DNA of 64,000 nucleotides from Syncephalis fuscata (lineage: Eukaryota; Zoopagomycota; Zoopagomycetes; Zoopagales; Piptocephalidaceae), in the NCBI GenBank assembly GCA_025786725.1, contig JAHLTZ010000010.1, forward strand, positions 434,001-498,000, read 5' to 3'. Under the pieces are notes generated by a model, which saw nothing but the letters and a program-made list of their open reading frames with translations, was not told the DNA's origin and ran no database searches. The translations under genes and the position numbers were made by a program. Every line of letters starts with the position of its first letter. Within the stretch, counting starts at the first letter, position 1. Shown here in pieces: positions 10,002-45,587 of the stretch.

Positions 10002-10487
10002 TTAGCACTTTGGAAAGCTCTTTGGTAATTTATCGTTACGGCCAAAGTCTTGTGTCCAGTAGGTCTGACCGCCATTGCCTAAAGCCATACCGCTGCCGAA
10101 ATGCGTGGCATCGCTTACTAGATTCTTGAGATGAAGAGGCGAGGCAATCCAGCTGTTCATGACTTGCTCTATAGATGTCTGTCCGCTTGCGACGTTCTCG
10201 CTTACACTGTTCCATCCGCCGCCACTGGCAGAGCAGCGCTGCATTAAACCAGGCTCACCAGCAAACGAATGGCTCATCTGATTATTACGGGCCTGAAGTA
10301 CACTATGGTCCTGTGCAGCTTTGTTCAGGCCGGTATCAATTGCAAGTGGTGGAAGCTTTTTTTCAGCGCGGAATTTGTTGACCAGGCAAATCATTTTTGT
10401 TGGATCGAAGCTAACTGGGCCAGCGCTTACTTCAATCGCGCTGGCGGCGAATGCGGTAATCATAATAAGAGTAGTGAGGAATTGCAT
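10002..10487 (-). CDS. secreted CAP/PR-1 family protein, copy 1
   Basis: 161-residue intronless protein. Residues 1-22 (MQFLTTLIMITAFAASAIEV, ending near SAG) form a signal peptide. The rest is one compact CAP (SCP/TAPS, PR-1-like) domain: CLVNKFRAEKKLPPLAID (first helix), HSVLQARNNQMSHSF (histidine of the cavity), GWNSVSENVASG (glutamate-containing strand), MNSWIASPLHLKNLVS (second histidine) and YWTQDFG (CAP signature 2-like). CAP proteins are extracellular and bind sterols or other lipids, or act in host interaction. The translation is identical to copy 2 at 14429-14914, its mirror partner in the palindrome. Confidence 0.9.
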   Translation of the reverse strand: MQFLTTLIMITAFAASAIEVSAGPVSFDPTKMICLVNKFRAEKKLPPLAIDTGLNKAAQDHSVLQARNNQMSHSFAGEPGLMQRCSASGGGWNSVSENVASGQTSIEQVMNSWIASPLHLKNLVSDATHFGSGMALGNGGQTYWTQDFGRNDKLPKSFPKC

Positions 10488-14428: not shown

Positions 14429-14914
14429 ATGCAATTCCTCACTACTCTTATTATGATTACCGCATTCGCCGCCAGCGCGATTGAAGTAAGCGCTGGCCCA
14501 GTTAGCTTCGATCCAACAAAAATGATTTGCCTGGTCAACAAATTCCGCGCTGAAAAAAAGCTTCCACCACTTGCAATTGATACCGGCCTGAACAAAGCTG
14601 CACAGGACCATAGTGTACTTCAGGCCCGTAATAATCAGATGAGCCATTCGTTTGCTGGTGAGCCTGGTTTAATGCAGCGCTGCTCTGCCAGTGGCGGCGG
14701 ATGGAACAGTGTAAGCGAGAACGTCGCAAGCGGACAGACATCTATAGAGCAAGTCATGAACAGCTGGATTGCCTCGCCTCTTCATCTCAAGAATCTAGTA
14801 AGCGATGCCACGCATTTCGGCAGCGGTATGGCTTTAGGCAATGGCGGTCAGACCTACTGGACACAAGACTTTGGCCGTAACGATAAATTACCAAAGAGCT
14901 TTCCAAAGTGCTAA
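14429..14914 (+). CDS. secreted CAP/PR-1 family protein, copy 2
   Basis: Exact amino-acid duplicate of the gene at 10002-10487, on the opposite arm of the palindrome and transcribed outward (divergent pair, both 3' ends pointing away from the centre). It has a 22-residue signal peptide and one CAP domain with the motifs listed for copy 1. Upstream sequence is duplicated as well, so both copies should have the same promoter and regulation. Confidence 0.9.
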   Translation: MQFLTTLIMITAFAASAIEVSAGPVSFDPTKMICLVNKFRAEKKLPPLAIDTGLNKAAQDHSVLQARNNQMSHSFAGEPGLMQRCSASGGGWNSVSENVASGQTSIEQVMNSWIASPLHLKNLVSDATHFGSGMALGNGGQTYWTQDFGRNDKLPKSFPKC

Positions 14915-16088: not shown

Positions 16089-19000
16089 TATTACATTTAA
16101 TACTCAGAATACTGTGTTGCATATTTTTGTAATTAATGAAATAATTATTAATGGATATATCGATCACTACTATATTTGGTTGTTTCACTGGTCTGTGTTC
16201 ATGCGACAATAATAATGGACAAGAAAATAAACTCATAAATACAGTGATAATAATGTATTTGTATTTTGTTGCAATGTCATTGTCATATTCCAATAGTGTC
16301 CAATATCGTTTATTTAATAAATATGCAGATCTCTGGCTGCACTGAATGGACTCATTTAGTTTGTACAATCTCTAAGGAAAATGGCAAAGTTTTGTATTAC
16401 TTGGCTCGTATATATTCATTCAGTCCAAAGTCGGTGTAACCAACAAATACGTAATGGCATGCGTTTGATGACGCGTACATTCCTAGTATATACAATATCA
16501 TATTTGTACTATTTAACTGGTATTTAGTTGATTTTGCTATCACACTTCTAGTATTGCTTTTATTTCTGCTTCTATAACAACAGGTAAGTACGCTGGATTT
16601 ATGTTACTTGTAAACTAACTGTTGTGTACCAAAAATATTGCAGCGTAATTATTGCACAAACAACATGTAAGTAGTACTGTTTTATTGAGTTCCAATTTAT
16701 TTATTGATGTTACGGCTGCAGGTTTATATTTGAGGCGTTCCCGATAGCGGGTGTAGTGCTATCGGTATTTATTTTGGCAATAGGCCGTCTAAACATATGT
16801 AAATACGACAGCACCACATACCATCGTATTCCTAGCAAACCGCTGCAAGATGACTGCACATTGAGCGACGACGACGATGATGATAATGACCAACACGAGC
16901 CATCTGAAGAAGAAGAGCGGAAACTGATGTTTTTTGAAACACGCAACAACACAAGCAATACAAACAAAGACCGACTTGATTATGCTGCAGCCATCAGACA
17001 TTTGGTCAAACGCAATAACATCGATGCAAACATCACCAAAATGGTCGGTAGCATGATTGCATTGTCCGCCTCGCTCTGGGGTGTGCTGTGGCAGCTTTCA
17101 CGCCGATCACACAACCATCGGATGGCGCTTTACTTTCCGGCTAGCAATACAATTGTATGGGTAAGTAGTACGTCGATTTACGGTTGAAAGCCGCTCATGT
17201 TTGCCAGCTATACATTACCGTGCTGTCAGTCATGAATCTAAGACGTGACAAATCGGCAAGAATCAAGTGTGGGACGCACCAGACATTGCTGATTGCTATT
17301 GCTTATTGCAGTGGATGCGCCGATATGATTGCACGATACACGTATGGCGTGCTTGAATTCTACATTCGCGAGACTCAGTTTGCACTCGCAATATTTGTTG
17401 GAGCGCAGATTGCAGCCATTGGCTATTTGTGACACGCGGGTCGTCGGAGGTAACAGTCAGTGGGCGAGTAAAAACACTCGAAATGAGCGCATCACTGTAT
17501 GAATGGATGTCGTTTAGTTGGATGTCGCCGATTATGGCCAATGGAGCCAAGAAAACGTTAAGCAATAATGATTTGTGGGAGTTGCCACAAAAGGACCAAG
17601 CGACAGTTATTACAAAGAAATACGATTTGTATAGGTTGGTGGCGTGCATTTGCTGTATTTAAAGCTAATTGTATATCAATAATAGGCCAGATATGTCATT
17701 TGGATCATACAAGTTATTTATGACATGCAAGAAGCAAATAGCAATACAGCTAACATATGGTTTATTATGGAGCATTACTATGTTTGCAACACCAGCATTT
17801 TTCTACTTTTTATTGGATGATCTTAACAATGCACATAAGCATGAGTCGCATGCCTGGCTATATTTGACTGGACTAATTGCTAGTATGATTGTATCAAGCA
17901 TATGTAATCAACTGGGCAATATGACTGGATTACATACAGCAATCCAATTCAAAACAATTATTTCAAATGAGATTTTTAAAATGTGTCTTAAGCGACGTAT
18001 ACCAATTGCGAAAAACACTAATTCAACTACATCTGACACTGAAAAATCTACCGGAGCACCAAGTAAATTGACAAAAAAGGATTTGAAGCCATCCACAGAG
18101 TGGGATAGTGGTGCGGTAGCAAGTTTGCTAAATGCTGATGTAGTTATCCTTGGAGAAGTAATGTCATTATTACACTTTTTCTTTGGATGCATTGTTCAAG
18201 TCATAATTGCATTTTCATTGCTTTGGTATATAACAGGCGCTGCCTCTTTGTTTGGATTATTTGCTTTGATTATTGTATGTATATTTATAAGTAGGAATGC
18301 CGCAAAAAGTCCTAAGTGTGTTATGGATTACCGAGAAACATGTGGAAAGCGATTATCAGCTATAAGTGAAGTAAGTATGTTATTATTAAGGTTGCCACTG
18401 TTGTTAATTTGTTTTAGATGCTACAATCACTGCGTATTATTAAACTATTTGCTTGGGAGCAACAATTTTGTGCACGTGTAGATGAAGCGCGAGAAAAAGA
18501 ACTAAGCGCAATTTGGAAATATTTTATTAATGTTACCACACATGCAGTAGCAAGTGTTGTTAGCCCAATCATTGTTACTGTTGCTACATTGGGTACATAT
18601 ACAATGTTGTTTAAAAATACGCTTACTTCAACAACTGCCTTTACATCTATTGTTTTACTTGAATCTTTAAAAACATCTATGAACCAGTGGTCTGCCGCAA
18701 TTTATTATTATTTCCAATATCGTGTTATTATACAACGTATCACGTCATTTTTATTACAGCCAGTTCTACCATCGGATGCTTTAAACAATTTTACAAATAA
18801 CAATCATCCAGAACGTATTGGTTTCGTCAATGCCGAATTCCATTGGAATCTAGCTGATAATAATGATAGCTCGTCTAGTAGCAGTAACGACTCATCAGCA
18901 TCCTACTTTAGTCTTACTGGACTAAATGTTGAATTTATTGTCGGTGAGCTCAACATAATTGCCGGTCCAACAGGCTGCGGCAAATCGTCGTTGCTCTTAG

Positions 19001-21888
19001 CCTTACTTGGCGGTAAGTGAACTAACACATTATATATTGGTATACTAACCATTTACAGAAATGCCACATGTACACGGCAAAGCATTCCTTCCAACTACTA
19101 AACGCCATACAAATACACTGGGTGTATCATGCAGCGACATTGGATATGTGGCACAGCAACCATGGCTACAAAATCTGACAATTCGTGAAAACATTTTATT
19201 TGGCCAGCCGTATGATGAGCAACGGTATCACCAGGTTCTGTATGCGTGTGCATTGGAGCGTGATCTCGAAATACTTGATGCCGGCGATCGCACACAAATT
19301 GGCGAAAAAGGCATTACACTTTCAGGTGGCCAAAAGCAGCGACTTGCCTTGGCGCGTGCTGTTATGGCCCATACCAACATCTTTTGTTGGATGACTGTCT
19401 TTCGGCAGTTGATTCGCACACCGCACGACACATCGTGCAAAATTGCTTGTCTGGTCCGTTAACAGCAGGACGTACTCGAATACTTGTCACCCATCATGTG
19501 GATTTGTGTGCATCTATTGCCCAATATGCTGTTTGATGAATAATGGACAGGTCGTTGCCACTGGTATGCCATCAGTTGCTTTAGCTTCGCTGTTAATGAC
19601 AAGCGAGAGTGATTCTGACCGGGATGAAGTCAATGACTCTTCTAATGCCAAGCCAAAGCATGATGCGCAAAACGACACACTATTCGGCTCTGATGAAGAA
19701 ACAGCAGCTATACGCACAGACGGTGTTTTAATAGAAGACGAATCTTATAATAGTGGTGCCATTGATGGCAATGTATATAAAACATATATCAAGGCGGCAG
19801 GCTATCAGTTCTGGATTTTAACAATCGCAGCTTACTTGATATTACAGCTATTAATTATCGGTCAAGCATACTGGCTAGTCATTTGGACACGCAACTCGGC
19901 CCCAGAAACAAATGGCAAATATGTTCGCACTTATTTGTGGATCACACTAGTAATATTGTTATTTGCTGCAGTGCCAACTTTAAGTTTATTTGCAACTGGG
20001 CTTCGCAGCTCTCGTAAAATATTCAGAACCATGTTACATACTGTAGCATATGCATCAATTCGTTTTTTGGATAAAACACCAGTGGGACGATTGATTAATC
20101 GTTTTAGTGGCGATATAAATGATTTGACCAGACTATATCACTTGCACTTCAACATGTATTTGCTTATACAAGCCAAATAATATTCCAACTATTAATTGTG
20201 TGCTTTGCAGTACCAAAGTTTATTATTGCAAGTATTTTAGTTTGTAAGTTATAATTATGTACATTAATGTAATATTGATAACTAATCATGCTATTTAGTC
20301 GTTGCATATTTTATGCTAGTGAGCTATTATGTTAAAGCCAATCGCAATTTCAAACGACTTGAAGCTGTCAATAAATCTCCGCTGCTATCACTATGTGCAG
20401 ATACAACCAGGTAAGCCAAGTGTGATTACTATTATAAATTTGTATTAACATTATACAGTGGTATCGCCACAATTCGTGCATTTGGTATGCAGAAATTGTT
20501 TTTTGATGAGAATCTGTATTATATCAACGTAATGCAACGACCAGCATATCTACAAGCTGGAGCCAGCCAGTGGATCACTTGTCGTATTCAAGCCATTTCA
20601 GTACTATTTACGCTTCTTGCAACATCAACATTTATTTGGAATCGAGACTATATAAGTGCCAACATTGCAGGATTTGCACTTAGTTATGCACTCGGATTTT
20701 TGAACTCTGCAGCAGTAAGTATACATTTATTAGTAGTAGTAGTTAACACTGTTGTTTGATAGGTCATGGTCCAGCGGTATACTAAAGTCGACGTTGCTAT
20801 GAATAGTGTCGAGCGCATTTGTGAATACTTGAAACTCGAACAGGAACCACCAGCTATTATTGAACACAATCGCCCACCTAGCAATGTATGTTATTAATCC
20901 AACTACTCGCAATATAATACTAACAAATATTCAGTGGCCTGAACATGGCAGAATTGACGTACAAAACATTTCAATTCGCTATGCCATTGACCAAAGCCCA
21001 GTTATACGGGACCTATCGTTTTCGGTCAATCCCGGTGAGCGTATCGGCATTGTAGGCCGAACAGGTAATTAGCATGCCGGTCAGTGCATACCAATTGTTA
21101 ATAGCAACTGCATATTAGGTGCTGGCAAATCAACACTATCGGTAGCATTCTTCCGATTTGTGGAAGCCTATGCTGGTCAAATTCTTATTGATGACGTCGA
21201 CATTAGTAACATTGGATTAAAGGATTTACGATCACGCTTGACAATCATTCCACAAGACCCGGTGCTATTCAGCGGCACAATCCGCAGTAATTTGGATCCA
21301 TTTACAATGCATGATGACGCGGCACTATGGAATGCATTGCGCCGTACGCATCTAATCGACGAAGACATTAATGCCGAGAAACCTGTTGGTCTAGAACATT
21401 TGGATGCGCCAGTGGCTGAAAATGGATCGAATTTCAGTCATGGTCAGCGTCAGTTGTTGTCAATGGCACGTGCATTGCTGCGCAATAGTCGGGTAAGCAA
21501 CATGCTATTAAGCAGCAATTTATTATACATCAGCTAAACATACGCACAGGTTATTATTATGGACGAAGCCACGGCATCGGTCGATTTTGAAACAGATGCT
21601 AAAATACAACAGACAATCCGTCAAGAATTTACCAACTCTACACTGTTGTGTATTGCGCATCGACTTCGCACCATTATCGACTATGACCGTGTAATGGTAC
21701 TTGGTATGTAGTTACTGTAAACAGCAGCAATAATGTTTATTATACTAATTAAATAATAGATACCGGACGTCTAGTGGAATTTGACAAGCCAAGTGTGCTT
21801 ATCAATCGACCGGACAGTCTATTCCGTAATTTGTGTGAACGTTCTGGTGAATTGGATATACTGCTAACTATGAGCCAGAGCAATACAT
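16089..21888. repeat. inverted repeat 2, left arm
   Basis: Matches 29168-34967 in inverted orientation (paired coordinates sum to about 51052-51056). The arm covers the whole ABC transporter gene plus about 0.6 kb of upstream DNA and stops 17 bp before the transporter stop codon. It is nearly identical throughout, except for a strongly diverged island at about 17925-18765. Confidence 0.95.
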
Positions 21889-29150: not shown

Positions 29151-32100
29151 TTAAATTATTGATACAGATGTATTGCTCTGGCTCATAGTTAGCAGTATAT
29201 CCAATTCACCAGAACGTTCACACAAATTACGGAATAGACTGTCTGGTCGATTGATAAGCACACTTGGCTTGTCAAATTCCACTAGACGTCCGGTATCTAT
29301 TATTTAATTAGTATAATAAACATTATTGCTGCTGTTTACAGTAACTACATACCAAGTACCATTACACGGTCATAGTCGATAATGGTGCGAAGTCGATGGC
29401 AATACACAACAGTGTAGAGTTGGTAAATTCTTGACGGATTGTCTGTTGTATTTTAGCATCTGTTTCAAAATCGACCGATGCCGTGGCTTCGTCCATAATA
29501 ATAACCTGTGCGTATGTTTAGCTGATGTATAATAAATTGCTGCTTAATAGCATGTTGCTTACCCGACTATTGCGCAGCAATGCACGTGCCATTGACAACA
29601 ACTGACGCTGACCATGACTGAAATTCGATCCATTTTCAGCCACTGGCGCATCCAAATGTTCTAGACCAACAGGTTTCTCGGCATTAATGTCTTCGTCGAT
29701 TAGATGCGTACGGCGCAATGCATTCCATAGTGCCGCGTCATCATGCATTGTAAATGGATCCAAATTACTGCGGATTGTGCCGCTGAATAGCACCGGGTCT
29801 TGTGGAATGATTGTCAAGCGTGATCGTAAATCCTTTAATCCAATGTTACTAATGTCGACGTCATCAATAAGAATTTGACCAGCATAGGCTTCCACAAATC
29901 GGAAGAATGCTACCGATAGTGTTGATTTGCCAGCACCTAATATGCAGTTGCTATTAACAATTGGTATGCACTGACCGGCATGCTAATTACCTGTTCGGCC
30001 TACAATGCCGATACGCTCACCGGGATTGACCGAAAACGATAGGTCCCGTATAACTGGGCTTTGGTCAATGGCATAGCGAATTGAAATGTTTTGTACGTCA
30101 ATTCTGCCATGTTCAGGCCACTGAATATTTGTTAGTATTATATTGCGAGTAGTTGGATTAATAACATACATTGCTAGGTGGGCGATTGTGTTCAATAATA
30201 GCTGGTGGTTCCTGTTCGAGTTTCAAGTATTCACAAATGCGCTCGACACTATTCATAGCAACGTCGACTTTAGTATACCGCTGGACCATGACCTATCAAA
30301 CAACAGTGTTAACTACTACTACTAATAAATGTATACTTACTGCTGCAGAGTTCAAAAATCCGAGTGCATAACTAAGTGCAAATCCTGCAATGTTGGCACT
30401 TATATAGTCTCGATTCCAAATAAATGTTGATGTTGCAAGAAGCGTAAATAGTACTGAAATGGCTTGAATACGACAAGTGATCCACTGGCTGGCTCCAGCT
30501 TGTAGATATGCTGGTCGTTGCATTACGTTGATATAATACAGATTCTCATCAAAAAACAATTTCTGCATACCAAATGCACGAATTGTGGCGATACCACTGT
30601 ATAATGTTAATACAAATTTATAATAGTAATCACACTTGGCTTACCTGGTTGTATCTGCACATAGTGATAGCAGCGGAGATTTATTGACAGCTTCAAGTCG
30701 TTTGAAATTGCGATTGGCTTTAACATAATAGCTCACTAGCATAAAATATGCAACGACTAAATAGCATGATTAGTTATCAATATTACATTAATGTACATAA
30801 TTATAACTTACAAACTAAAATACTTGCAATAATAAACTTTGGTACTGCAAAGCACACAATTAATAGTTGGAATATTATTTGGCTTGTATAAGCAAATACA
30901 TATTGAAGTCCAAACACTATAGTCTGGTCAATATCATTTATATCGCCACTAAAACGATTAATCAATCGTCCCACTGGTGTTTTATCCAAAAAACGAATTG
31001 ATGCATATGCTACAGTATGTAACATGGTTCTGAATATTTTACGAGAGCTGCGAAGCCCAGTTGCAAATAAACTTAAAGTTGGCACTGCAGCAAATAACAA
31101 TATTACTAGTGTGATCCACAAATAAGTGCGAACATATTTGCCATTTGTTTCTGGGGCCGAGTTGCGTGTCCAAATGACTAGCCAGTATGCTTGACCGATA
31201 ATTAATAGCTGTAATATCAAGTAAGCTGCGATTGTTAAAATCCAGAACTGATAGCCTGCCGCCTTGATATATGTTTTATATACATTGACATTAATAGCAC
31301 CACTATTATAAGATTCGTCTTCTACTAAAACACCGTCTGTGCGTATAGCTGCTGTTTCTTCATCAGAGCCGAATAGTGTGTCGTTTTGCGCATCATGCTT
31401 TGGCTTGGCATTAGAAGAGTCATTGACTTCATCCCGGTCAGAATCACTCTCGCTTGTCATTAACAGCGAAGCTAAAGCAACTGATGGCATACCAGTGGCA
31501 ACGACCTGTCCATTATTCATCAAAACAGCATATTGGGCAATAGATGCACACAAATCCACATGATGGGTGACAAGTATTCGAGTACGTCCTGCTGTTAACG
31601 GACCAGACAAGCAATTTTGCACGATGTGTCGTGCGGTGTGCGAATCAACTGCCGAAAGACAGTCATCCAACAAAAGATGTTGGTATGGGCCATACACAGC
31701 ACGCGCCAAGGCAAGTCGCTGCTTTTGGCCACCTGAAAGTGTAATGCCTTTTTCGCCAATTTGTGTGCGATCGCCGGCATCAAGTATTTCGAGATCACGC
31801 TCCAATGCACACGCATACAGAACCTGGTGATACCGTTGCTCATCATATGGCTGGCCAAATAAAATGTTTTCACGAATTGTCAGATTTTGTAGCCATGGTT
31901 GCTGTGCCACATATCCAATGTCGCTGCATGATACACCCAGTGTATTTGTATGGCGTTTAGTAGTTGGAAGGAATGCTTTGCCGTGTACATGTGGCATTTC
32001 TGTAAATGGTTAGTATACCAATATATAATGTGTTAGTTCACTTACCGCCAAGTAAGGCTAAGAGCAACGACGATTTGCCGCAGCCTGTTGGACCGGCAAT

Positions 32101-34387
32101 TATGTTGAGCTCACCGACAATAAATTCAACATTTAGCCAGTAAGACTAAAGTAGGATGCTGATGAGTCGTTACTGCTACTAGACGAGCTATCATTATTAT
32201 CAGCTAGATTCCAATGGAATTCGGCATTGACGAAACCAATACGTTCTGGATGATTGTTATTTGTAAAATTGTTTAAAGCATCCGATGGTAGAACTGGCTG
32301 TGATAAAAATGACGTGATGCGTTGTATAATAACGCGATATTGGAAATAATAATAAATACTACTAGGTAGCTGAACTATGGCTGTCCTAAGCGACTCAAGT
32401 ACGGCAATGGATGTAAAGGCAATAGTTGAAGTAAGCGTATGTTTAAAAAATATGGTGTAAACACCCAAAGTAGCTGCAGTAATCAGTACTGGGCTAATAG
32501 CACTTCCACTTGTGAAAATGGAATAATTACAAGAATCTTTCCAAATTGCGCTCAGTTCTTTCTCTCGTGCTTCATCTACACGTGCACAAACTTGTTGCTC
32601 CCAAGCAAGTAGTTTAATAATACGCAGTGATTGTAGCATCTAAATCGAATCAATATGCAATAAAAGCTAATTATGCAGCACCTACTTCATTAACGATAGA
32701 TAATCTTTTGTCGCTAGCGTTTCGATAATTTCTGATAGATTTGGAATTTAACGCAGAGACCATCCCTATAATACTATCGCAAATAATAAATGCAATCAGT
32801 CCAAATAAAGACGCAGCTCCAATAATACGCCAGAGTAATGAAAATCCAATTATAATTTGAATTATACTTCCAATATAAATATGCATTAGCGATATTACAT
32901 CACCAAGCACAGTGACATTAGAATTTAGTAAGTTTGCAACTGTGCCACCATTCCATTCTGGAGATTTGGCGCTTTTACTTGGTGTTGATTTATCTAAATT
33001 TGCTGCACGGTCTTCAGCATCAGATAAGCTCACATTTGCTGTAATTGGTATACGTCGCTTAAGACACATTTTAAAAATCTCATTTGAAATAATTGTTTTA
33101 AACTGAACTGCTGTATGTAATCCGGCCATATTGCCCAGTTGATTACATATGCTTGATACAATCATACTAGCGATTAGTCCAGTCAAATATAGCCAGGCAT
33201 GCGACTCATGCTTATGTGCATTGTTAAGATCATCCAATAAAAAGTAGAAAAATGCTGGTGTTGCAAACATAGTAATGCTCCATAATAAACCATATGTTAG
33301 CTGTATTGCTATTTGCTTCTTGCATGTCATAAATAACTTGTATGATCCAAATGACATATCTGGCCTATTATTGATATACAAGTTAGCTTTAAATACAGCA
33401 AATGCACGCCACCAACCTATACAAATCGTATTTCTTTGTAATAACTGTCGCTTGGTCCTTTTGTGGCAACTCCCACAAATCATTATTGCTTAACGTTTTC
33501 TTGGCTCCATTGGCCATAATCGGCGACATCCAACTAAACGACATCCATTCATACAGTGATGCGCTCATTTCGAGTGTTTTTACTCGCCCACTGACTGTTA
33601 CCTCCGACGACCCGCGTGTCACAAATAGTCCAATGGCTGCAATCTGCGCTCCAACAAATATTGCGAGTGCAAACTGAGTCTCGCGAATGTAGAATTCAAG
33701 CACGCCATACGTGTATCGTGCAATCATATCGGCGCATCCACTGCAATAAGCAATAGCAATCAGCAATGTCTGGTGCGTCCCACACTTGATTCTTGCCGAT
33801 TTGTCACGTCTTAGATTCATGACTGACAGCACGGTAATGTATAGCTGGCAAACATGAGCGGCTTTCAACCGTAAATCGACGTACTACTTACCCATACAAT
33901 TGTATTGCTAGCCGGAAAGTAAAGCGCCATCCGATGGTTGTGTGATCGGCGTGAAAGCTGCCACAGCACACCCCAGAGCGAGGCGGACAATGCAATCATG
34001 CTACCGACCATTTTGGTGATGTTTGCATCGATGTTATTGCGTTTGACCAAATGTCTGATGGCTGCAGCATAATCAAGTCGGTCTTTGTTTGTATTGCTTG
34101 TGTTGTTGCGTGTTTCAAAAAACATCAGTTTCCGCTCTTCTTCTTCAGATGGCTCGTGTTGGTCATTATCATCATCATCGTCGTCGCTCAATGTGCAGTC
34201 ATCTTGCAGCGGTTTGCTAGGAATACGGTGGTATGTGGTGCTGTCGTATTTACATATGTTTAGACGGCCTATTGCCAAAATAAATACCGATAGCACTACA
34301 CCCGCTATCGGGAACGCCTCAAATATAAACCTGCAGCCGTAACATCAATAAATAAATTGGAACTCAATAAAACAGTACTACTTACAT
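29151..34387 (-). CDS. ABCC/MRP-type ABC transporter, copy 2, two frameshifts
   Basis: Mirror copy of the transporter at 16665-21905, convergent with it. NBD1 is intact here, including Walker B ([14 protein letters not shown]), D-loop and H-loop region ([10 protein letters not shown]). Two single-base deletions relative to copy 1 interrupt it: near 32135, just upstream of NBD1 (SLTG then stop, where copy 1 continues), and near 29400 at the NBD2 H-loop (copy 1 reads [11 protein letters not shown]). TMD1 residues differ strongly from copy 1 over about 280 residues, including the intron between them. For example copy 2 has [15 protein letters not shown] where copy 1 has [15 protein letters not shown]. 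The two could therefore transport different substrates if functional. The stop is at 29151-29153. Confidence 0.8.
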
Positions 34388-34967: not shown

Positions 34968-35419
34968 ATAAATCACAAATATTATTATTAGAATGAATTT
35001 AAAAAAATAGCTGTATTTAATGTAACTGATTGTATTATAACACGTGGAAAAAGCTAGCTTTCTTGATAATATATATTTACATAATAAGGCTACGATGTAA
35101 TTAACTACCTAAGCGATGCATCCCATCATTAGGTCATTAAGTGTAAATAGTGCAAGATATTTTTGTATAATATTATTAATAAATTTTATATTTACGCTGA
35201 CTTATGTTAGAAATTAATACAATATATGTGCGCGAGTAGGATGCTAATACGTTTGCTGGATTGATTTTTATTAGCTATTAGATGCAAATCAAGTATAACC
35301 ATATACATAAAACTCAATTATATAACTAAAACAAAATAACGTTTTTATTACTACAAGTTTGTATAATTGAATATGCACGATCAAATACAGACTTGTTGGT
35401 AACATAATAACGCCATTAA
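34968..35419. other. intergenic between inverted repeat 2 and the microexon gene
   Basis: AT-rich 450 bp holding the 3' flank of the minus-strand gene that ends at 35420. No separate gene seen. Confidence 0.5.
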
Positions 35420-37932
35420 TTAAAATCTGAATAATTCGGAGTATTGGATAGAGCCTGGTATGTACATGGGCCGAACGGTGGTTGTCAAATGATCTTGATC
35501 TTTGTTGAATGCGTACCTACAATATATAGGAATAGCAATTTAATTATACCTCCAATGCTAATGTCTTGAAAATGCCGATTATTCTATGTTTGTAAATACA
35601 TACAGCACATTTATGTAATCAGTATATAAATTAACAACAGTATACAATGCCACTTACTAACTACTGACACAATTATTAAATTATATGGCATGTTTTTAGT
35701 GTATAGCTAATTAATATACAATTTCACTCACGATCTATTAAAAAGTATCGGGCATACAGTATATATCATACGTTTAAGCCATAGTTTGTTGCTATATAAT
35801 ACCACTTACATACTATTAACATAGATTATTAAACACAATATACATGGTATATAATTAGTACACAGTTTAGTGATATGCGATATTACCTACTAACTATTAG
35901 CACAGGTTATTTAAAGCACAGCGCATGGTATATTTTAATATAAGTTTAGTTGATATATAAAGTCACTTACTAACTATTAACAAATTATTAAACACATAAT
36001 ATATAGTGAGTGCTTAGTGTATAATTGCTTAATATATGATGTTATTTACCAACTATTAACAAGTGTTATTAAACGTAAAGTTTATGGCATATGTTTAATG
36101 CATAGATAACTAATATACAATGCCACTTACAACCTATCATCAGAACTTATTAAGCACACACATTGCATGGCATATGTTTAATGCATAGCTAATTAATATA
36201 CGATGCCACTTACGAACTATTAGTACAAATTATTAAAATACATGGCATATTTTAGTGCATAGCTGTTTAATATATGTTACCACTTACCAGCTATTAAAAC
36301 ATATTATTAAACACACAGAGTAAATGGTATATGTTTAATGAATAGCTGATTGATATGCAATAACACTTGCCATCTATTGCAAAAAAATTGGTAAACACGC
36401 ATTACATGGTATATGTTTAGTGCATATTCAATTGATATCTAATTTACTTACGAACTATTAGTATGAGTTATTAATTGCACAGTGCATGGTATCCGTTTAG
36501 TACATAGCTGATTTATATATAGTGTCACTTACTAACTATAAATATAAATTAGTAGACACAAAATATAAAATATACATTTAGTGCATAGCTGATTAATATA
36601 CAGTATCACTTACGAACTATTAACATAAGTCAGCAACCACACATTGCATGATATATGTTTAACGCATAGCGGATCTATATGTAATACCACTTACCAACTA
36701 TTAATAGAACTTATTAAACACATGGTACATATTATATGCTTAATGAATAGTATATTGATATGTAGCGTCACTTACTAGCTATTAACATAAATTATTAAAC
36801 ACATGATATAAAAATATGATTAGTGTGTAGCTGACTGATATGTAGTGTTACTTGCCAACTATTAGCAAAAATTAGTAAATATACAGTACATTAAATATAT
36901 TTGGTCTATGACTAATTGATATACAGTGTCACTTACGCTCTATTAGCACAGGTTATTAAACATGCAATACATTATATATGTTTAACGCATAGCTGATTGA
37001 TATGTAGTGTCGCTTACGAACTATTAACATAAAATATTAAATACATAATATATAGCATATGATTAGTGCGTAGTCGCTTAATATGCAACGCCACTTACTT
37101 CCTATTATTACACGTTATTAAATATGCAACATGCAGCATATGATCAATGCATAGCCGATTAATATGCAATAGTACTTACGATCTATTAACACGATTTATT
37201 AAACATGCAGTATATCGTATATGTTTAGTGAATTTCTAATTAATACACAATGCCACTTACTAACTATAGCATATGTAATTAATTATACAGTATACATTAT
37301 ATGTTTAGTGCATATTCAATTGATGTTTAGCGTCATTTACTTTCTATTAACATAGATTATTAAGCACATGACATATGATATATGATTAGTGCATGGCCAA
37401 TTGCTATACAGTGTTACTTACGAACTATTAGCATAAGTTAATAAATACATATTGCATATTATATGTTTGATGCATAGCTGATTAATATGCAATTCTACTT
37501 ACTACTATTGCACATGTTGTTGAGTGCACAGTTTATGGTATAAGTGTAAAGCATGGCTAATTTCTGTGTGCTTTTACTTACGTCCTATTAGCACGTGGTT
37601 AGTACGTAGCTGATTAATACATGATGTCGCTTACGTTCTATTGATTCAAGTTCAACATATTAGCACTGCTAATATAGTATTTAATTTGCTATTTTATGCT
37701 AAGCCTACCTAAATCTTCTGACTCAAATTTAACTAATTTAAATTAAACAATAATATTTATCGTATTTGCCATTTATATGGCAGCGTACAATAAGTAACTT
37801 GACAATGGTTTCTAATCACGACTTACTGTCTAATATATTATTAATTTGTTATAATGTTAACAAGAATATCAACTTATATACTTATTGTAATTACAACATA
37901 CCACGTCGGATTTGGGTTGGAATAGCATCCAT
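35420..37932 (-). CDS. gene of 31 exons, 26 of them a single codon; small membrane protein
   Basis: Minus-strand model. Exon 1 is 37902-37932 (ATG at 37930-37932 in ATAATGG; in-frame TAA upstream): MDAIPTQIRR plus G. Next, low coordinate with sense bases: 37827 ACA; 37709 AAGATTTAG; 37635 AAC; 37582 GAC; 37503 TA; 37422 TTC; 37341 AAA; 37261 TTA; 37180 ATC; 37099 GAA; 37018 TTC; 36937 AGC; 36856 TTG; 36776 CTA; 36695 TTG; 36614 TTC; 36533 TTA; 36452 TTC; 36371 ATG; 36288 CTG; 36214 TTC; 36131 GTT; 36050 TTG; 35971 TTA; 35891 TTA; 35810 TAT; 35732 ATC; 35658 TTA; 35550 CATTGGAG; last exon 35420-35516. Every intron begins GT (or GC at 36856 and 36371) and ends AG. The joined frame has no stop. 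The ~74-residue product has a charged start (residues 9-22, RRDKDLERLFKLIE), a Leu/Phe helix (24-40) and a polar tail (AFNKDQDHL ... IPGSIQYSELFRF). Least sure: the 8-nt exon, which implies a 33-nt last intron; its length mod 3 is what the tail frame needs. No known family recognised. Unproven without RNA data. Confidence 0.7.
35641..37634. repeat. array of about 25 related ~81-bp units, each one intron plus one codon
   Basis: On the plus strand the words CACTTAC-NNN-CTATTA recur every 71-84 bp, most often exactly 81 (78-nt intron plus 3-nt exon). Between them lie weaker shared words: TTATTAAACACA, then ATGGTATATGTTTAGTGCAT, then AGCTGATTAATATGCA. Units are 60-80% alike by eye, so the array is old rather than a fresh satellite. 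The three bases between the two conserved words vary freely while the flanking splice-type words do not. That is the reverse of ordinary tandem-repeat decay. Confidence 0.9.
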
Positions 37933-39670
37933 TATGGCCGTATTGACTTAAAGCTGCAATGGAGGTCTAGAAAACAACAATGGAAGGCTTCGTGTTGATG
38001 TTAGTTTGTTGAAAGAAGAAAATAGAATGAATAAGACTGTGGTTGGTACGAGTAAATAGCAAGGAGTACCTTTTATAAAAAAATAAAGCGTGATAATGGT
38101 GTTATTAATTAGCTGTGTGGATTGTGTGGGCTATTTAAATATATATTTATCCTAAAACATCAGCATTTTATACTGTATAGACTATAACATTGATTTACAA
38201 TGTAGTCAATACAACCCATTCACACAATGACTTCAAGTACGTTCGTGCCAATATATTGATGATTTGATGATATGCAGTAAAATATTTATTTCATCTGTAT
38301 AGCACTTACACAGATGGTGTGGCAATGTCAATGGTTTAATGTGTGTGGCGTAAATCTATCCATCAATTTCTACCATTCTTTTACACAATTTAATCGTATG
38401 ACACAAGCCGAGTCTATCGGTTTTGCAGGAGCAACGATAATGCATTTCTGTGCCTTTGGTGCTGCTTTATGTTGATAAATTCACCCCTTCAATGTCTGCA
38501 TGCTTTCTAAATAGTGTTTAACGCTGATACAACAGTAGCATCAACACATTGAATGCACTCCTTTAAAGATTTAGACTGTTGCGCATAAGCTGATTGGATT
38601 TTTTTAAATCATGGAAATCTACTAATTGTTTATCTACATCCACTCAATTTGAGATTGCGACTTGTTGTAAAAAACAAACAACTCCTTTTAACACAATATT
38701 ATTAATCATTAATTCATAGTTTATTTTTAACAATTTATTACTGAACTATGCATAACAACATTTTTATAATAAAATATTAGGCTTGAATGTGGATGTCATA
38801 AACTGTTTAACCATAGAGCCACATAAAGATATCAAATTTACATATCAATTTTTCTTAGTCATGTATAAGCGATATTAAGCGTACAGCAACAATGTATGTC
38901 ATATCAACCAGTGGCAGCTATGAAAAACTTATTATAAATGCATACATACTCACCAGTCTGAAGGAAAGGTAACATACCATCATAGTATCAAAGATCAAGA
39001 TTCTCCGTTGAATTTACCACGTTTAACATTTAATATTATTGTAATTGTATATAAAATACAACACAAATAGCATAATTTCAATAGGAATATACGCATGACT
39101 ATCTATCTTTTTAATAAAAAATAGATCGCTGAGACTAGTATTATTTTATTATCAACTAGTCAAATTTGATTACAATATAATAATATTTATTATTATGAGT
39201 ATACAATGAGCAATGGAGTGTATGAGTAGAGAGCACATGTGTACATAATAGCTATGATAATAAATCTATGATAATAATGATTCAATCATTAATATTTTCA
39301 CCACCCACTACCATGTTTAATAAAGCGAATATCTAGTGCAATTATGTGAATGTTATTGAATTTAGTCATTTAAGCATAGTTACACTAACGCATTTATAAA
39401 TTATTTATAAAAATAAATTGTATAATTATATTGAAGAAAGGTGAAATAAGACTAAACACCATCCATGTATTGATTGCAAACAAGCGACATATGCGTGGTA
39501 GATCACGTGATGTTGTTATTGATAATTAATTATTACCATATTTGGTAATGCTTATAAGACAAATTTACTATACACATCTTTATCCTAGATGATGATAATA
39601 ACGCTAAAATTTTCCTTATTCGCTTGCACACTATTGACCTCTAGTCTATTATCCAACTTTGTTTGTCAAT
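37933..39670. other. long gene-poor stretch
   Basis: AT-rich 1.7 kb between two divergent genes (microexon gene on minus, FOCAD-like on plus). Apart from the small cysteine-bearing frame at 38356-38467 I see no coding sequence or ordered repeat. Confidence 0.5.
38356..38467 (-). other. isolated cysteine-rich exon-like frame
   Basis: After an acceptor-like AAAG the minus strand reads SSTKGTEMHYRCSCKTDRLG, then LCHTIKLCKRMVEIDG, to a TAG at 38356-38358. It has four cysteines (C-x-C, x8, C, x6, C) and a protein-like composition, unlike its AT-rich surroundings. No start exon could be joined to it. Could be an exon relic of a small secreted protein or chance. Confidence 0.25.
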
Positions 39671-42600
39671 ATGGACCAAACTGACGCAGTATTGCAGCAT
39701 AACTGTATAGTGCGCATAGTACCGTGCAGTCTCAAGCCTTTCGTACGCTGCTAACTCAAATAAAACAACGGCAGCCGGCAGCAATTGAGCAATTGCGACA
39801 GCTATTATTGGACTTGAACGCGCCGTCTCTACCACGAATTGCCGCGTTTTATAGCATACCTCAACTTGTTCGTCTTAATATTATAACATGGCAGGATGCC
39901 CAAGAAATGCTGATACAAGCTGTAACTTTAACGGAACTTTCTCCAGGCGTATCATCTTCACCAACAACGGTAAATGATACGCAACATCAATTTGAACAAG
40001 CTTGTATTGTAGAGGTTCAGCTAGAGTTGGCCCGACTAGTATCACTTCAATCTGGCTCGTTCTCTCTGCCATATAAAACTCGACACCATCCTTTGATTAT
40101 GATGATGGACCGAATAGGAGCGACATTGACGGTTCATTTAATGTTACCGATTATAGAGGATACAATACAGACATTAATCCAGCCACAAGCTAACGACAAA
40201 AATTCTGCCAATTGTCCAACACCAGCAGAGACTGCCGATCGTTTTCTACACTGTGTGCGTGCTCCCCTTATATACGCTATAACAACAGCTGATACTACTA
40301 CGGATGCTGAAGGCATTGTAAGAATACAAACTTGTAGTATGCTAGTAAGACTAGCCCGTCATGTTTATCCATTAAAAACAGCACCGCTTTATACAACTCT
40401 AATTGATATGCTAATTGAAGGCTGGCGATCAGCATTAGCATCTTCACCAGGTCATCCAACAATTATAAGTATAGCTGAAATGATATTGGATGTAAACAAA
40501 TTAGCAATGAATTCATCCATGCCATTGTTGTTATCATCATCATCAGCAGGAGCAGCAGCACAATCATCAAAACTGCCATTGTATTTAAGTGTAGGTGGAT
40601 TAATTTGGGCTGCTTTATTAGACGGCTCCATGGCTCATCAGCCCATTTCTGCATGGATTCGATTGTTGTTAAAATTCTTTACGCATTATGAATTGGATAA
40701 TATAGACAACAATTATCGATATCTTTCTATTGTAGGCACTGCATTTTTATTGTCAACTACTATATTGCCGTCAGATATAGCATATTTACTTAATTTATGG
40801 CAAACTCTAACGGCTAAGACTGTTACATCACGACTAGCTTTGTTAGCAGCATATCCTTTACTGCAACTATCGATGGAAGCAACTACAGTAGAGCTACGCG
40901 CTGAAGCAAAGACTTTATTTGATAAACTTGTTTTTTATACACCTAGCGTGGATGAACCACTCGAAGAAGTAAGTTCCAAGTTTTTTTACTTAATATCATT
41001 AATTTTTGGGTGCTAGTGGCAATCACTTATCGGTGTAATGAAATGGACTGGACAATGGGCTGTACTTGTTCAATATACTCATCAATGGCTGTTTGATAAT
41101 AGCAAAGAAGCAACCAGTATTGATACAACGACACCAATGGGCCGCTTTTTCCATATATCTCAATTATTTGCATCATCTCACTCTCCATCGCTAAATCATT
41201 TTGTTTTTGTTCAGCCTGAGTTGGCACATTTGCCAATTTTATTTCATTTACTAAGAGCAAGCAATGATAAAGCACGTATTGCAATTTTATTGCAAACACT
41301 ACCCCATTTGGCCGTGGATGCTCACGGTACGGCGGTGGTAGTAAAAGTAGCCACAGGCTTATTAGCTTATAGAAAAAACGGCTCATTAGCAGCCATTGGT
41401 CTACGTATGCTATTTGCTACGTGGCGTATTAATCCACGCGTGTGGCGTATTGTCAGATCGACTTGTATCGAATGGGTTCAGCAACGCCAACAATCACCAT
41501 TGGATACTCACCAAACATCTATGGAATTGGCAGTGGTATTTTCCTTAAAGTAAGTTACAACTACAGTTGTAATAACACTTTTGTGATTTATAATATTTCA
41601 TTACTAGAGATGCAATTACACTACGTAGTAAAGAATGTGGAGAAGATGTGTTGTCATTGGTTGCATCATTACTACACTGCCGGCTAACACCAATATCTAT
41701 AGTAGCAATTATTGATATAATTTCTATTTGTGTTCAAACAAATATTGTAGATGTCCGTACTGGTAAGTTAGCATATTATAATATTTAAAATAAAGTACTA
41801 ATTTACTAACTAATAAATAGTATGGACTGTTCTCGTGCTTCCCATTGCCAATCTAGCCAAAAAGCAATATAATTCACGAATTTTATGTGCACTGTGTCGC
41901 TTTTTTAGTTTGGCTGGAAATATTAGAGAAGGCAAGATTAATTGTTATTATACCAATTTTGATGTTAATTATAAATATGTATTATAGACACTGAAGGCTA
42001 TGTTCAATTCAAACAAACAATATTGAAAGATTTTTTATACCCATTTGCTTTTCCTCACATACATCCTGATGGAATAACTGTGGATGACCAAGTGAAAGGA
42101 GCTGCACTCATGGCTTTATCGCACTTTACAATCGAGGATAAAAAGATGATTTTACCAGATTCATCACGCGAATTATTTGCAGATATTCTGGCTCACACTC
42201 ATCCAGCCCATGCTCGCTTCCTTTCATCATTGGTTGAAGAAGAGATAATAAGAATGCGTAGAGGATTAATGAAAGGCAATATGTTATCCAACTCGCTCTC
42301 TAATGGAGAAACTCGCTGGATAGATGCTGTAAAAACATCATTAACTGAGTGGCAACTGCAATGGTCTGCAGGAGACATGCCCACATCATTAGCATCAATA
42401 GGAGCAATAGCCACTTTGCATCGGCTGGAGACTACAAACGATACTACGTGCACTTCACAGCAAATTGGTGATTTAGCACGGGATGCCACATTCTCAGATA
42501 ATTTTATATGGCGTTTACTTGCACTGCCATCCTGGTCAATCTATTTTCAACGACTATTACAACAATCAAATCCCGGAAAGTTAGCCACTATTTGCTATAC

Positions 42601-45587
42601 AAGTATTACAAACCGTCTGGACTCTTGTCGTATACCGAAGGATATAGGCAATTTAATATTTGCACTTGGTGGTATGATAAATAATTACTCTAATTTACAT
42701 GATGTTTATTAATATTCTTATTTAGGATTGGGCTGCGCACTACATCGGTGTACATCACCTGCAGCACCATCGCTCATTTTAAGAAGTGTTCGTCTATTAA
42801 TGAGCGAAAAGAGAAAGCCACAACCTGCTTCAGGCGACTATGCCAACTTTGCCACTACCATTGTACTAGGCCAATTAGTATCATTGCTTGCATTAGACGA
42901 ACCACTTGTGAAGCAAGTAGCAATTCTATTACAACAAGGATTAGCCACCAGTAATACAAGGTATTTGAATAATATAACGCATTAATAGAATTTAATACAT
43001 AATTATTAGAGATGGAGGGGGCCATGAGGGATGGCAATTTGGTATTATGAATGGCATAGCACGTTTGTTGAAAAGTCTTTACGAAGCAGTCACACTATCC
43101 GATCAAAGTTGGGCTTTGCGAGAAGAATTACTAGATTTGCTGATAGCCTCATTGCATCCATCCTACCAGATTTCTGTTTTGGGCAGTCTGGGTGCAGGAC
43201 TGGGGCTGGGCGAATTAAGCCAAATTTTTAAATCCATTCAATCTGTTGTGTATCCAACGGCAGTTCAGTTAATCAATAATGAAATTGGCAATGAACAAAA
43301 ATCAAACAAAATGGCCGGTGCTGCTTGGGTGGTGGCCATGTCAACGACCAAATCTGATAGAGCAACACAATTGGAATTACTAAATAAATTACAATCAACC
43401 ATGCTATTAAATCAGGTAAGTAAAATAGTGTTTATACAATAAATACAATAATTAATTATACCACCATTAAGGAACACTGGACGGAAGGCTGGCCGGCCGT
43501 ACAAGTGGCCCATGCCTATTTATTACACCTACATCTGCAGACTAGTGGACAGCAATCGGCCATTCTTTCAGAATACCATGCTTATATTAATGGACAACTT
43601 GAAGTCATTGAATCATCCAACACACCATCGGCCTATCGACAAATGGCTGTAATGAATTTAGCAGTGGCTCTCGGTTTAAACTGGTCAGTATCAACAAAAG
43701 AAGGTATAGTGCCATTTTATTTTGTCGATGCTTCCACCGAAGCTATTCATCGCTTATGGAAGGCTTGTCTTCCCTCACCAACCATCAATATGCGTGATGT
43801 TAAAAGTAATCGTATGGTGGGCTTAATCATTGTACGCTGGGCTAATGAACTTCAAATGGGACAAGATGTATTCATGAAAGGTATTGGCGGCACTGGTACC
43901 GATAAGAGTAGTAATGAACCACGCGACTTAAGCCGACTGCCATCTACTAGTTATTTGCGTGTTTTGTTTGATATATTAGCAGAAATGGTTCAAGGTAAGT
44001 TTATTACACAGCATAACCATTACTATTTATATATTAATACATCTAATAATAGGTGGATCTGAAAACGAATTCAATATTAAATTACTTGTACAAACACTGT
44101 CCTATGTAACATGGCAATACCCTTCAGTCAATTGGTGGCCAGTTATGTCACGCTTAATAGAATGGCCCTACCAGCCAATACGTCTAGCCACTATTCGTCT
44201 AATCGGTCGGCATGCAATTTATTCGGCCTCATTGCTAAAGGTGCTACAAGTGGCCTTACTTCGATTTGCAACAGAGAAAGATTTAGTCATACGTGGCCAT
44301 TTACTAGGTGAAATGGGTGTTGGTCGTCTACTGACCTTGATCGGCCTTGATTTAGTTCAGCCTCCATCTATTGAGGATACAAGACGGCTAAAATTAAATA
44401 GACAACGAGGCTCAGGTGGAGAAGGCACAGATCAGGCAGCAACTATATCAGCCACTCAAATTCACACGGTACTTGGCGGAATAGAAGAAGTGTTGTTTGC
44501 TGCAAGATATGGATTAAATGATGATCGGCGAACTTACCTCGAAACACTAGCTCGTCATCTTAATAGGACAGAATCAATTAAATATTTATTGTCTACGGAT
44601 AAAGAACAAGCAACAGAGGAAACGGAGGCTGCCGAAGAAACGTGGTACCAAACAAGATTACGATTACGTCAACAACTCATCGATTTATCGAACGAGGAAA
44701 TATACCCTGCCGTTAAAGCCTCGTTGTATCACTTGGAAGAGCTACCAGCATCGGTGCGATTAGCAGCTGATGACAACTAGTTGAATCGAATTATATTCAA
44801 ATAATATGCGCACTAGTTAGTTTGAATCGATTATCGGCTACACGATATTTGGTATTAGTTATGCAAAAAGCACTTGATCAAAAAATATCACATAAGCAAT
44901 TTATCGATACAAGTCATAACGTATTACTGCCTGCGCTTTATGAGGAACAAAAACGAGCCAGATCAACTATGCAATTCACAGCTGAATGGCTTATACGCTG
45001 GCTTGACGTGCTCATTCTACGTGTAGAACAGCCCGATTGGCCTGAAACTGTCCAATGGTTTATACAATACTTATTGCCAGGCACTATTCAAATGGATATG
45101 CAGGAAGAAGAAAGTATTTCGATCAAACGTCAAAGCGGTATAAGGTCTATTAAATTAGAGGATAGCTTAAAATTACTCTATGCCAACGAAGACGGCGAAT
45201 CAACACTTCATTGGCCACAAGCTTTTTACGCCATTACCATTATAGGCGACTTTGTAGTTGAATTGCCACCAGCACTTTATGATTTTCAGTGCCAGGTAAG
45301 TAAAACTCTTATAAAGCTACAATAAGCAACTCGTTAACCCATGCTACACATAGCTGGTCAAGCGATTAATAGCAGTGCATGGATATTGTGTAACAAAGAT
45401 GCAGTCACACTGGCCAGCTCAAACTTCAACGCCTGCTTTCTCTTCTACGCTCTCAACCTCACCATTGTCCATTTTTACTTTCCCTCCGTCGTGCTCTATT
45501 CTCTGGCCATCGCTAATGGAACGTGTCTCGCCCATTTTAACCATTCAAGAAAGGCGTCACTTTAGGTTAAAGGACACCTGCCAATAA
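39671..45587 (+). CDS. focadhesin/RST1-like HEAT-repeat protein
   Basis: Very long helical-repeat protein (over 1,700 residues, about ten introns) matching the focadhesin (FOCAD)/plant RST1 family, which binds the SKI-exosome machinery in cytosolic RNA decay. Starts MDQTDA at 39671. A 41-nt intron (GTATTG to GTGCAG) joins it in frame to SQAFRTLLTQIKQRQP. Exons are HEAT-like throughout. The DUF3730-type region is seen around IVAIIDIISICVQTNIVDV, VWTVLVLPIANLAKKQ and VKGAALMALSHFTIEDKK. The C-terminal region contains VTWQYPSVNWWPVMSRL. A frame change at 44780 is explained by an intron with a GTTGAA donor (44779-44820) that yields DDNYLNRLSA. The last exon begins LVKRLIAVHGYCVTK and ends at 45587. 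Budding yeasts lack this family. Family call from pattern, not from a search. Confidence 0.7.

Follow-up and report, generated by a model that had tools for sequence, protein, structure and literature searches.

The array in the window

A 64-kb stretch of DNA from Syncephalis fuscata (Zoopagales), referred to here as the window, carries on its minus strand an array of 27 microexons (37829-35658), 26 of them 3 nt long and one 2 nt long, each bordered by AG on one side and by GT or GC on the other and spaced mostly 80-81 nt apart (Table 1). A regular minus-strand array of 27 exons of 2-3 nt had been described in the initial annotation of this DNA, and that description was confirmed. Acceptor scores were weak for three of the 27 microexons (ACA, TA, and one TTA, 37263-37261). 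The window has 15 sites of the strict signature AATAGNNNGTAAG, every one of them within the array; dinucleotide shuffles give an expectation of 0.14. Tandem Repeats Finder reports 35803-37489 as a repeat with a period of 81 nt, 20.9 copies and 68% matches.

Alignment with other loci of the family described below changed both ends of the gene. The exon 1 proposed initially (37932-37902) turned out to be merely the tail of the real exon 1 (37993-37902), which in the window has no start codon and contains an in-frame stop, and the last exon, first placed at 35516-35420, begins in the family at 35583 instead. Once the 2-nt exon is omitted, the window array is open in phase 1 up to the TAA of the last exon; with the 2-nt exon included, phase 0 is open. 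The latter is the stop-free frame claimed at the outset: it is indeed open in the window, but it is not the frame of the family, and the Leu/Phe transmembrane helix predicted from it appears to be an artefact of reading in phase 0, as the family would be read in phase 1 after a signal peptide. Because exon 1 lacks a start codon and contains an early in-frame stop, and because one microexon is only 2 nt long, the window copy is probably a partly decayed relic; a failed RT-PCR on this copy alone would therefore not refute the family.

Elsewhere in the window, two CAP-domain genes (10002-10487, minus strand, and 14429-14914, plus strand) lie in inverted orientation, and their 161-aa products read the same in the list of open reading frames. 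Among named proteins, those closest to one of the window's CAP proteins are from S. fuscata (81%). Two ABC-transporter-like genes (17669-20180, plus strand, and 30801-33868, minus strand), each split over several open frames by introns or decay, are likewise inverted and very similar by eye in the same list. These genes may be parts of one large inverted duplication.

Table 1. Features of the array locus in the window, with the genomic matches to the mature L050 peptide in the last row.
Feature	Position	Strand	Remark
TATA-like box TTTAAATAG	38131..38139	-	present in other family members too
Exon 1 relic (signal-peptide exon)	37902..37993	-	start codon lost, in-frame stop; exon 1 of the initial annotation is its tail
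Microexon ACA	37827..37829	-	corresponds in position to exon 2 elsewhere in the family; weak acceptor score
Microexon AAC	37635..37637	-	
Microexon GAC	37582..37584	-	
2-nt microexon TA	37503..37504	-	frame shift if included; absent from the frame-blind model; weak acceptor
Microexon TTC	37422..37424	-	
Microexon AAA	37341..37343	-	
Microexon TTA	37261..37263	-	weak acceptor score
Microexon ATC	37180..37182	-	
Microexon GAA	37099..37101	-	
Microexon TTC	37018..37020	-	
Microexon AGC	36937..36939	-	
Microexon TTG	36856..36858	-	GC donor
Microexon CTA	36776..36778	-	
Microexon TTG	36695..36697	-	
Microexon TTC	36614..36616	-	
Microexon TTA	36533..36535	-	
Microexon TTC	36452..36454	-	
Microexon ATG	36371..36373	-	GC donor
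Microexon CTG	36288..36290	-	
Microexon TTC	36214..36216	-	
Microexon GTT	36131..36133	-	
Microexon TTG	36050..36052	-	
Microexon TTA	35971..35973	-	
Microexon TTA	35891..35893	-	
Microexon TAT	35810..35812	-	
Microexon ATC	35732..35734	-	
Microexon TTA	35658..35660	-	last of the array
Last exon, first part, common to the family	35485..35583	-	two coding nucleotides, stop codon TAA (35581-35579) and conserved 3' UTR
AATAAA, poly(A)-signal-like	35344..35349	-	
Matches to the L050 peptide besides L050	C222:4234-4401, C289:777818-777952, C157:436214-436348, C24:718222-718356, C255:24548-24619		

A family of related loci in the S. fuscata genome

A DNA similarity search of the genome from which the window comes (29 Mb, 299 contigs) gave at least 92 matches, with the best 40 of 304 candidates scored. 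The sample read comprised 40 loci grouped from DNA matches and four further loci (L048-L051); of these four, L049 and L051 are arrays, and L048 and L050 have a coding part without introns, so that a match to the signal-peptide exon need not mean an array. Matches to that exon number at least 150 (the best 150 of 342 candidates scored), and the 15-nt signature WAAYAGNNNGTAAGT is found at 2,938 sites genome-wide, compared with 31 for the reversed pattern used as a control; these counts place the size of the family beyond the sample read. Judged by its sequence, the window array belongs to a large S. fuscata family.

Gene models were built from splice-site scores alone, and hence blind to frame, for 36 of the 40 loci; L032 was modelled apart, and L033, L035 and L043 lie outside the model set. 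Some model exons are clearly wrong (in L011, L020 and L021). In 22 of the 36 models, exon 1 is intact and the frame stays open from the ATG to the last exon or to a point at most 5 nt away from it; the 14 that fail this rule are decayed copies, modelling errors, or loci with no stop within the 60 nt read. Phase 1 was free of stops in 29 models, phase 0 in 26 and phase 2 in 5.

The members share a common anatomy. An upstream region with a TATA-like box is common to the members listed, and exon 1, with a length of 31 codons plus 1 nt, reads like MKLSIAVVCTLVVAFVASTAMVDAKPNRIRR followed by the single nucleotide. Of the 36 modelled loci, 30 have an intact exon 1 that ends in phase 1, with an N-terminal signal peptide as judged by eye, and in 21 exon 1 ends in Arg-Arg. 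Strictly bounded microexons across the 40 loci are exactly 3 nt long in 664 of 674 cases; in the largest locus, L012, such exons make up 82 of the 86 modelled, and the first 63 of them are uninterrupted. Introns between called microexons measure 62-91 nt (78, 79 or 80 nt in 532 of 777), and their length is thus not tied to multiples of three. The last exon opens with two bases and a TAA, which occupies nucleotides 3-5 in 30 of the 36 modelled loci and is followed, in the members listed, by conserved sequence and AATAAA. Donors and acceptors of the arrays were compared by eye with those of the ordinary introns of the gene at 39724-45325, which begin mostly with GTAAGT, but also with GCAAG or GTATT, end mostly with TAG and are about 50-60 nt long, and the two sets were alike.

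Several further properties of the loci were observed. The 3' UTR (in the window, 35578-35344 on the minus strand) is by eye strikingly conserved among the members listed despite unrelated peptides, which suggests a regulatory role or recent exchange. One array intron of 414-416 nt in each of L038 and L042 contains an insertion of about 300 nt that is G+C-richer by eye, and L009, L020 and L032 have one unusually long array intron each. Very similar copies of arrays (L014/L015; L036/L039/L041; L010/L011) lie on the same or other contigs, some of them inverted.

Reading frame of the microexons

Exon 1 hands over one nucleotide, so that in phase 1 a codon takes its first base from the end of one microexon and its other two from the start of the microexon that follows. 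Phase-1 stops created only by the joining of neighbours occur at 5 of 668 junctions, compared with 21.0 ± 3.4 when exon order is shuffled. With a wider motif and 42 loci the corresponding values are 6 and 25.2 ± 3.8, with a minimum of 13 in 5000 shuffles, and 4 of 624 junctions carry such a stop when duplicate junctions are removed. All six stops are confined to the final five units of the arrays concerned (L012, L025, L036, L039, L040 and L041). In phase 2 there is little or no avoidance (61 stops in 668, with 67.8 ± 5.5 expected). Phase 0 yields no stop in 778 triplets, where 16 would be expected from independent columns, and 7 in 624 with the wider motif; microexons starting with TA or TG are rare in general, perhaps because AG followed by TA or TG resembles a donor.

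It should be noted that the raw phase-1 stop rate proves nothing alone, because decoy codons of the same construct, taken at 34 intron offsets, gave between 0 and 257 stops of 624, and at 12 of the 34 offsets there were 4 or fewer; base composition at these sites is too constrained for raw rates to serve as a control. What matters is the comparison with shuffled exon order, which keeps the triplets and thereby controls for composition.

Variability along the unit points to the same frame. Over 600 non-redundant units, the entropy is 1.97 bits at the first exon nucleotide, 1.63 at the second and 1.98 at the third, and each of 35 flanking positions has at most 1.59 bits, below the first and third exon nucleotides. 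Read in phase 1, the first and third nucleotides are codon positions 2 and 1, and the second is the third codon position. The frames are separated in sequence not only by stops but also by exon 1, the conserved TAA, the match to a paralogue described below, and these entropies. A reading of the conserved start of the last exon as coding sequence in phase 0 was considered as well and dropped, as its frame is lost in some members (L016, L017 and L018) while the TAA at nucleotides 3-5 persists in 30 of the 36 modelled loci.

An intronless paralogue and the predicted peptides

The exon of the intronless locus L050 runs unbroken from the signal peptide through CKCRDDDGYCTSC. Across consecutive introns, the array of L049 read in phase 1 gives CKCQDEDGNCTSC, which is identical to the L050 segment at 10 of 13 residues. 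The score of this match is 69 in phase 1, compared with 12 in phase 0 and 22 in phase 2, and the maximum in 20,000 shuffles of microexon order was 53. The shuffle test used an exon list set by eye; the automatic model of L049, which omits a 33-nt exon and merges exons at weak donors, also yields the matched motif, in the reading frame of exon 1. In L048, too, reading continues straight past the Arg-Arg, the site of the first intron in array members. Six genomic sites match the mature L050 peptide, namely L050 itself (C278:53075-53242), a second and identical one, three that match at 69% and a short one at 71% (Table 1), and on this evidence the matches are a subfamily with ordinary exons.

Predicted phase-1 peptides vary widely among the loci, being Pro/Thr-rich in L024, Ser/Gly-rich in L018, Cys-rich in L022 and L023, and helical in L012 and L014; the product of L051, most of which comes from 39 microexons of 3 nt, is also Cys-rich. 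The first 63 microexons of L012 give VEQKLQSFATQLQQEIDSFRPSCSEDIQKLYDQADKLHDELLVKLNKFHEYIKQYGQLHQQDG, a putative amphipathic helix in phase 1. A test of helical moment was applied to L012 and L014. For L012 the mean moment was 0.401, compared with 0.216 ± 0.050 for shuffled exon order, a value reached in about 0.0005 of 2000 shuffles; the maximum moment was a weaker indicator (0.049 of order shuffles), as was the test on L014 (0.033 for the mean and 0.070 for the maximum).

Searches for relatives of the products were largely negative. The mature L051 and L012 products had no tblastn match in the genome, in what is a weak test with no positive control, and Pfam returned nothing above its cut-off for five proteins, the best matches, all below cut-off, being apolipoprotein-like (L012) and big defensin (L049). 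In a protein database that includes S. fuscata proteins, the L012 product had no match and the L051 product matched only P0011, a distinct annotated S. fuscata protein; L012 and L051 therefore seem to be unannotated.

Divergence of introns and codons

The first, second and third exon nucleotides differ in 53%, 29% and 51%, respectively, of 589 unit pairs with a mean difference of 3.6% over their 80 flanking bases. Within loci, neighbouring triplets are shared by 13-14% of 295 pairs whose introns are 93-97% identical, and by 36% and 25% of 75 pairs whose introns are at least 97% identical, where chance gives 4% in each case. Many of the extreme pairs are supplied by L018 and L019 (60 and 77 pairs at 95% identity or above), and duplications of several units that carry their codons along are visible in L009 and L018. 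Codons thus diverge while introns stay alike. This may reflect exchange between introns together with codon-level selection, or diversifying selection, or the insertion of introns; the second nucleotide, too, changes much faster than the introns, which speaks against point mutation under simple positive selection as the sole cause.

Discussion

Taken together, these data are best explained if the array belongs to a large family of genes for secreted peptides in which about one codon is carried by each 3-nt exon, in phase 1, a reading to which we assign a probability of about 0.92. A spliceosomal gene of single-codon exons had been proposed for the window locus alone, and the sequences analysed here give that proposal strong support far beyond it. 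According to this reading, an ordinary exon 1 would encode a signal peptide, often ending in Arg-Arg; 3-nt exons in succession, separated by introns of about 80 nt, would supply the rest of the peptide, with codons split in phase 1; and translation would stop at the TAA just inside the last exon, the remainder of which would serve as a conserved 3' UTR. Since an exon of 3 nt leaves no room for U1 at the donor together with the acceptor machinery, the spliceosome would probably remove the introns stepwise, with each join rebuilding a donor. The arrays may have grown by duplication of a unit of intron plus codon, and a protease may cut the products at the Arg-Arg. Syncephalis species parasitise other fungi, and the peptides may act on these hosts. 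A virus from S. fuscata is reported in a survey that drew in part on mined transcriptomes (PMC7482067), so RNA reads of this fungus are likely to exist; in such data, exons of 3 nt would escape ordinary aligners.

Two other accounts of the triplets were weighed. In one, intron-like units form a minisatellite that is spliced out as a single long intron or stays untranscribed, and the triplets are meaningless; a tandem repeat with a period of 81 nt, a broken exon 1 in the window copy and decoy offsets of which 12 in 34 are as poor in stops as the real phase-1 codons are all compatible with it, yet it gives no reason for the avoidance of cross-intron stops relative to shuffled order, for the 13-residue match to the intronless L050, for the fixed length of 3 nt or for an amphipathic helix that depends on exon order, and we regard it as very improbable. 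Slightly less probable still is the account given in the initial annotation, in which the triplets are exons read in phase 0 that encode Leu-rich membrane-spanning products. The lack of stops among the 778 triplets, the 26 open models and the open window frame with the 2-nt exon included speak for it; however, intact exon 1 ends in phase 1 and the TAA is conserved where phase 1 ends, each in 30 of the 36 modelled loci, the L049/L050 match appears only in phase 1 (69 versus 12), and the most variable nucleotides are the first and third rather than the first and second. Phase 0 and phase 2 were both rejected as the family frame; phase 2 shows little or no avoidance of stops, scores 22 in the L049/L050 comparison and is open in 5 of 36 models.

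A further question concerns origin only, namely whether introner-like mobile copies invaded an intronless gene or whether units of intron plus codon were duplicated. Invasion would fit the apparently intronless members L048 and L050 and the low sharing of neighbouring triplets (13-14% of 295 pairs) next to introns that are 93-97% identical; random insertion would nevertheless not space introns exactly 3 nt apart in one phase, the sharing next to introns of at least 97% identity (36% and 25%) is far above the chance level of 4%, and the duplications in L009 and L018 bring codons along. We consider such an invasion unlikely. A few introns of one neighbouring gene, compared by eye, are unlike the array introns. 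A tentative extension of the secreted-peptide reading, which we hold to be somewhat less than an even bet, is that the unit of intron plus codon acts as a cassette by which secreted peptides are built and diversified residue by residue, with units duplicated, the introns homogenised by exchange and codon positions 1 and 2 near saturation.

Secreted proteins built from very short exons have been described in other parasites. In the portions of the report drawn on here, the micro-exon genes (MEGs) of Schistosoma mansoni have a signal peptide and, after it, very short exons in a row, most of which preserve the frame, and they encode secreted, variable parasite proteins; 35 genes are described, with 10-20 such exons per gene, mostly of 15 nt and ranging over 3-81 nt in the abstract and 6-81 nt in the text, and introns of 0.1-5 kb (PMC10526429). 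The Syncephalis family likewise has a signal peptide and then a run of very short exons, but these are 3 nt long, number up to 82 in one model and are separated by introns of 62-91 nt, and there are at least 150 matches to the signal-peptide exon. The bicycle genes of aphids, as far as the sections used describe them, encode secreted salivary effectors of these insects and have about 17 exons on average, including many microexons, with internal exons beginning at codon position 2 (PMC9168663). The Syncephalis microexons are also many and also start at codon position 2; compared by description, they differ in forming runs of single codons, and in the parts of the two sources considered neither MEGs nor bicycle genes are described as such runs (PMC10526429, PMC9168663).

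Among fungi, a one-nucleotide exon in CYP621A of Fusarium (PMC12940212) and an isolated microexon in Xlr2 of Trichoderma virens (PMC11121469) indicate, as the Syncephalis arrays would, that fungal spliceosomes are able to use exons of one to a few nucleotides, but these are reported as single microexons within genes that are ordinary in other respects. For introner-like elements, and for intron gain through tandem duplication, the multiplication of near-identical introns in a genome and the creation of introns by duplication are reported (PMC4457414, PMC4974935); unlike these, the Syncephalis introns lie head to tail, one codon apart, within one gene family. Among the papers listed in a literature search, no title or abstract described anything like arrays of one-codon exons, and the Syncephalis titles listed (genome and intron; S. 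fuscata) included nothing on microexons.

To our knowledge, these would be the most finely divided protein-coding genes known. They challenge ideas on the smallest exon that a spliceosome can define, offer a natural system for testing stepwise splicing, and suggest that a whole family of secreted peptides can escape annotation. As each exon would hold a single codon, always in the same phase, any combination of exons could be skipped without loss of frame, and if the cassette reading is true, one gene could give many peptide variants against host fungi. Syncephalis would be a third parasite lineage, after the schistosomes with their MEGs and the aphids with their bicycle genes, in which secreted proteins are made from microexons.
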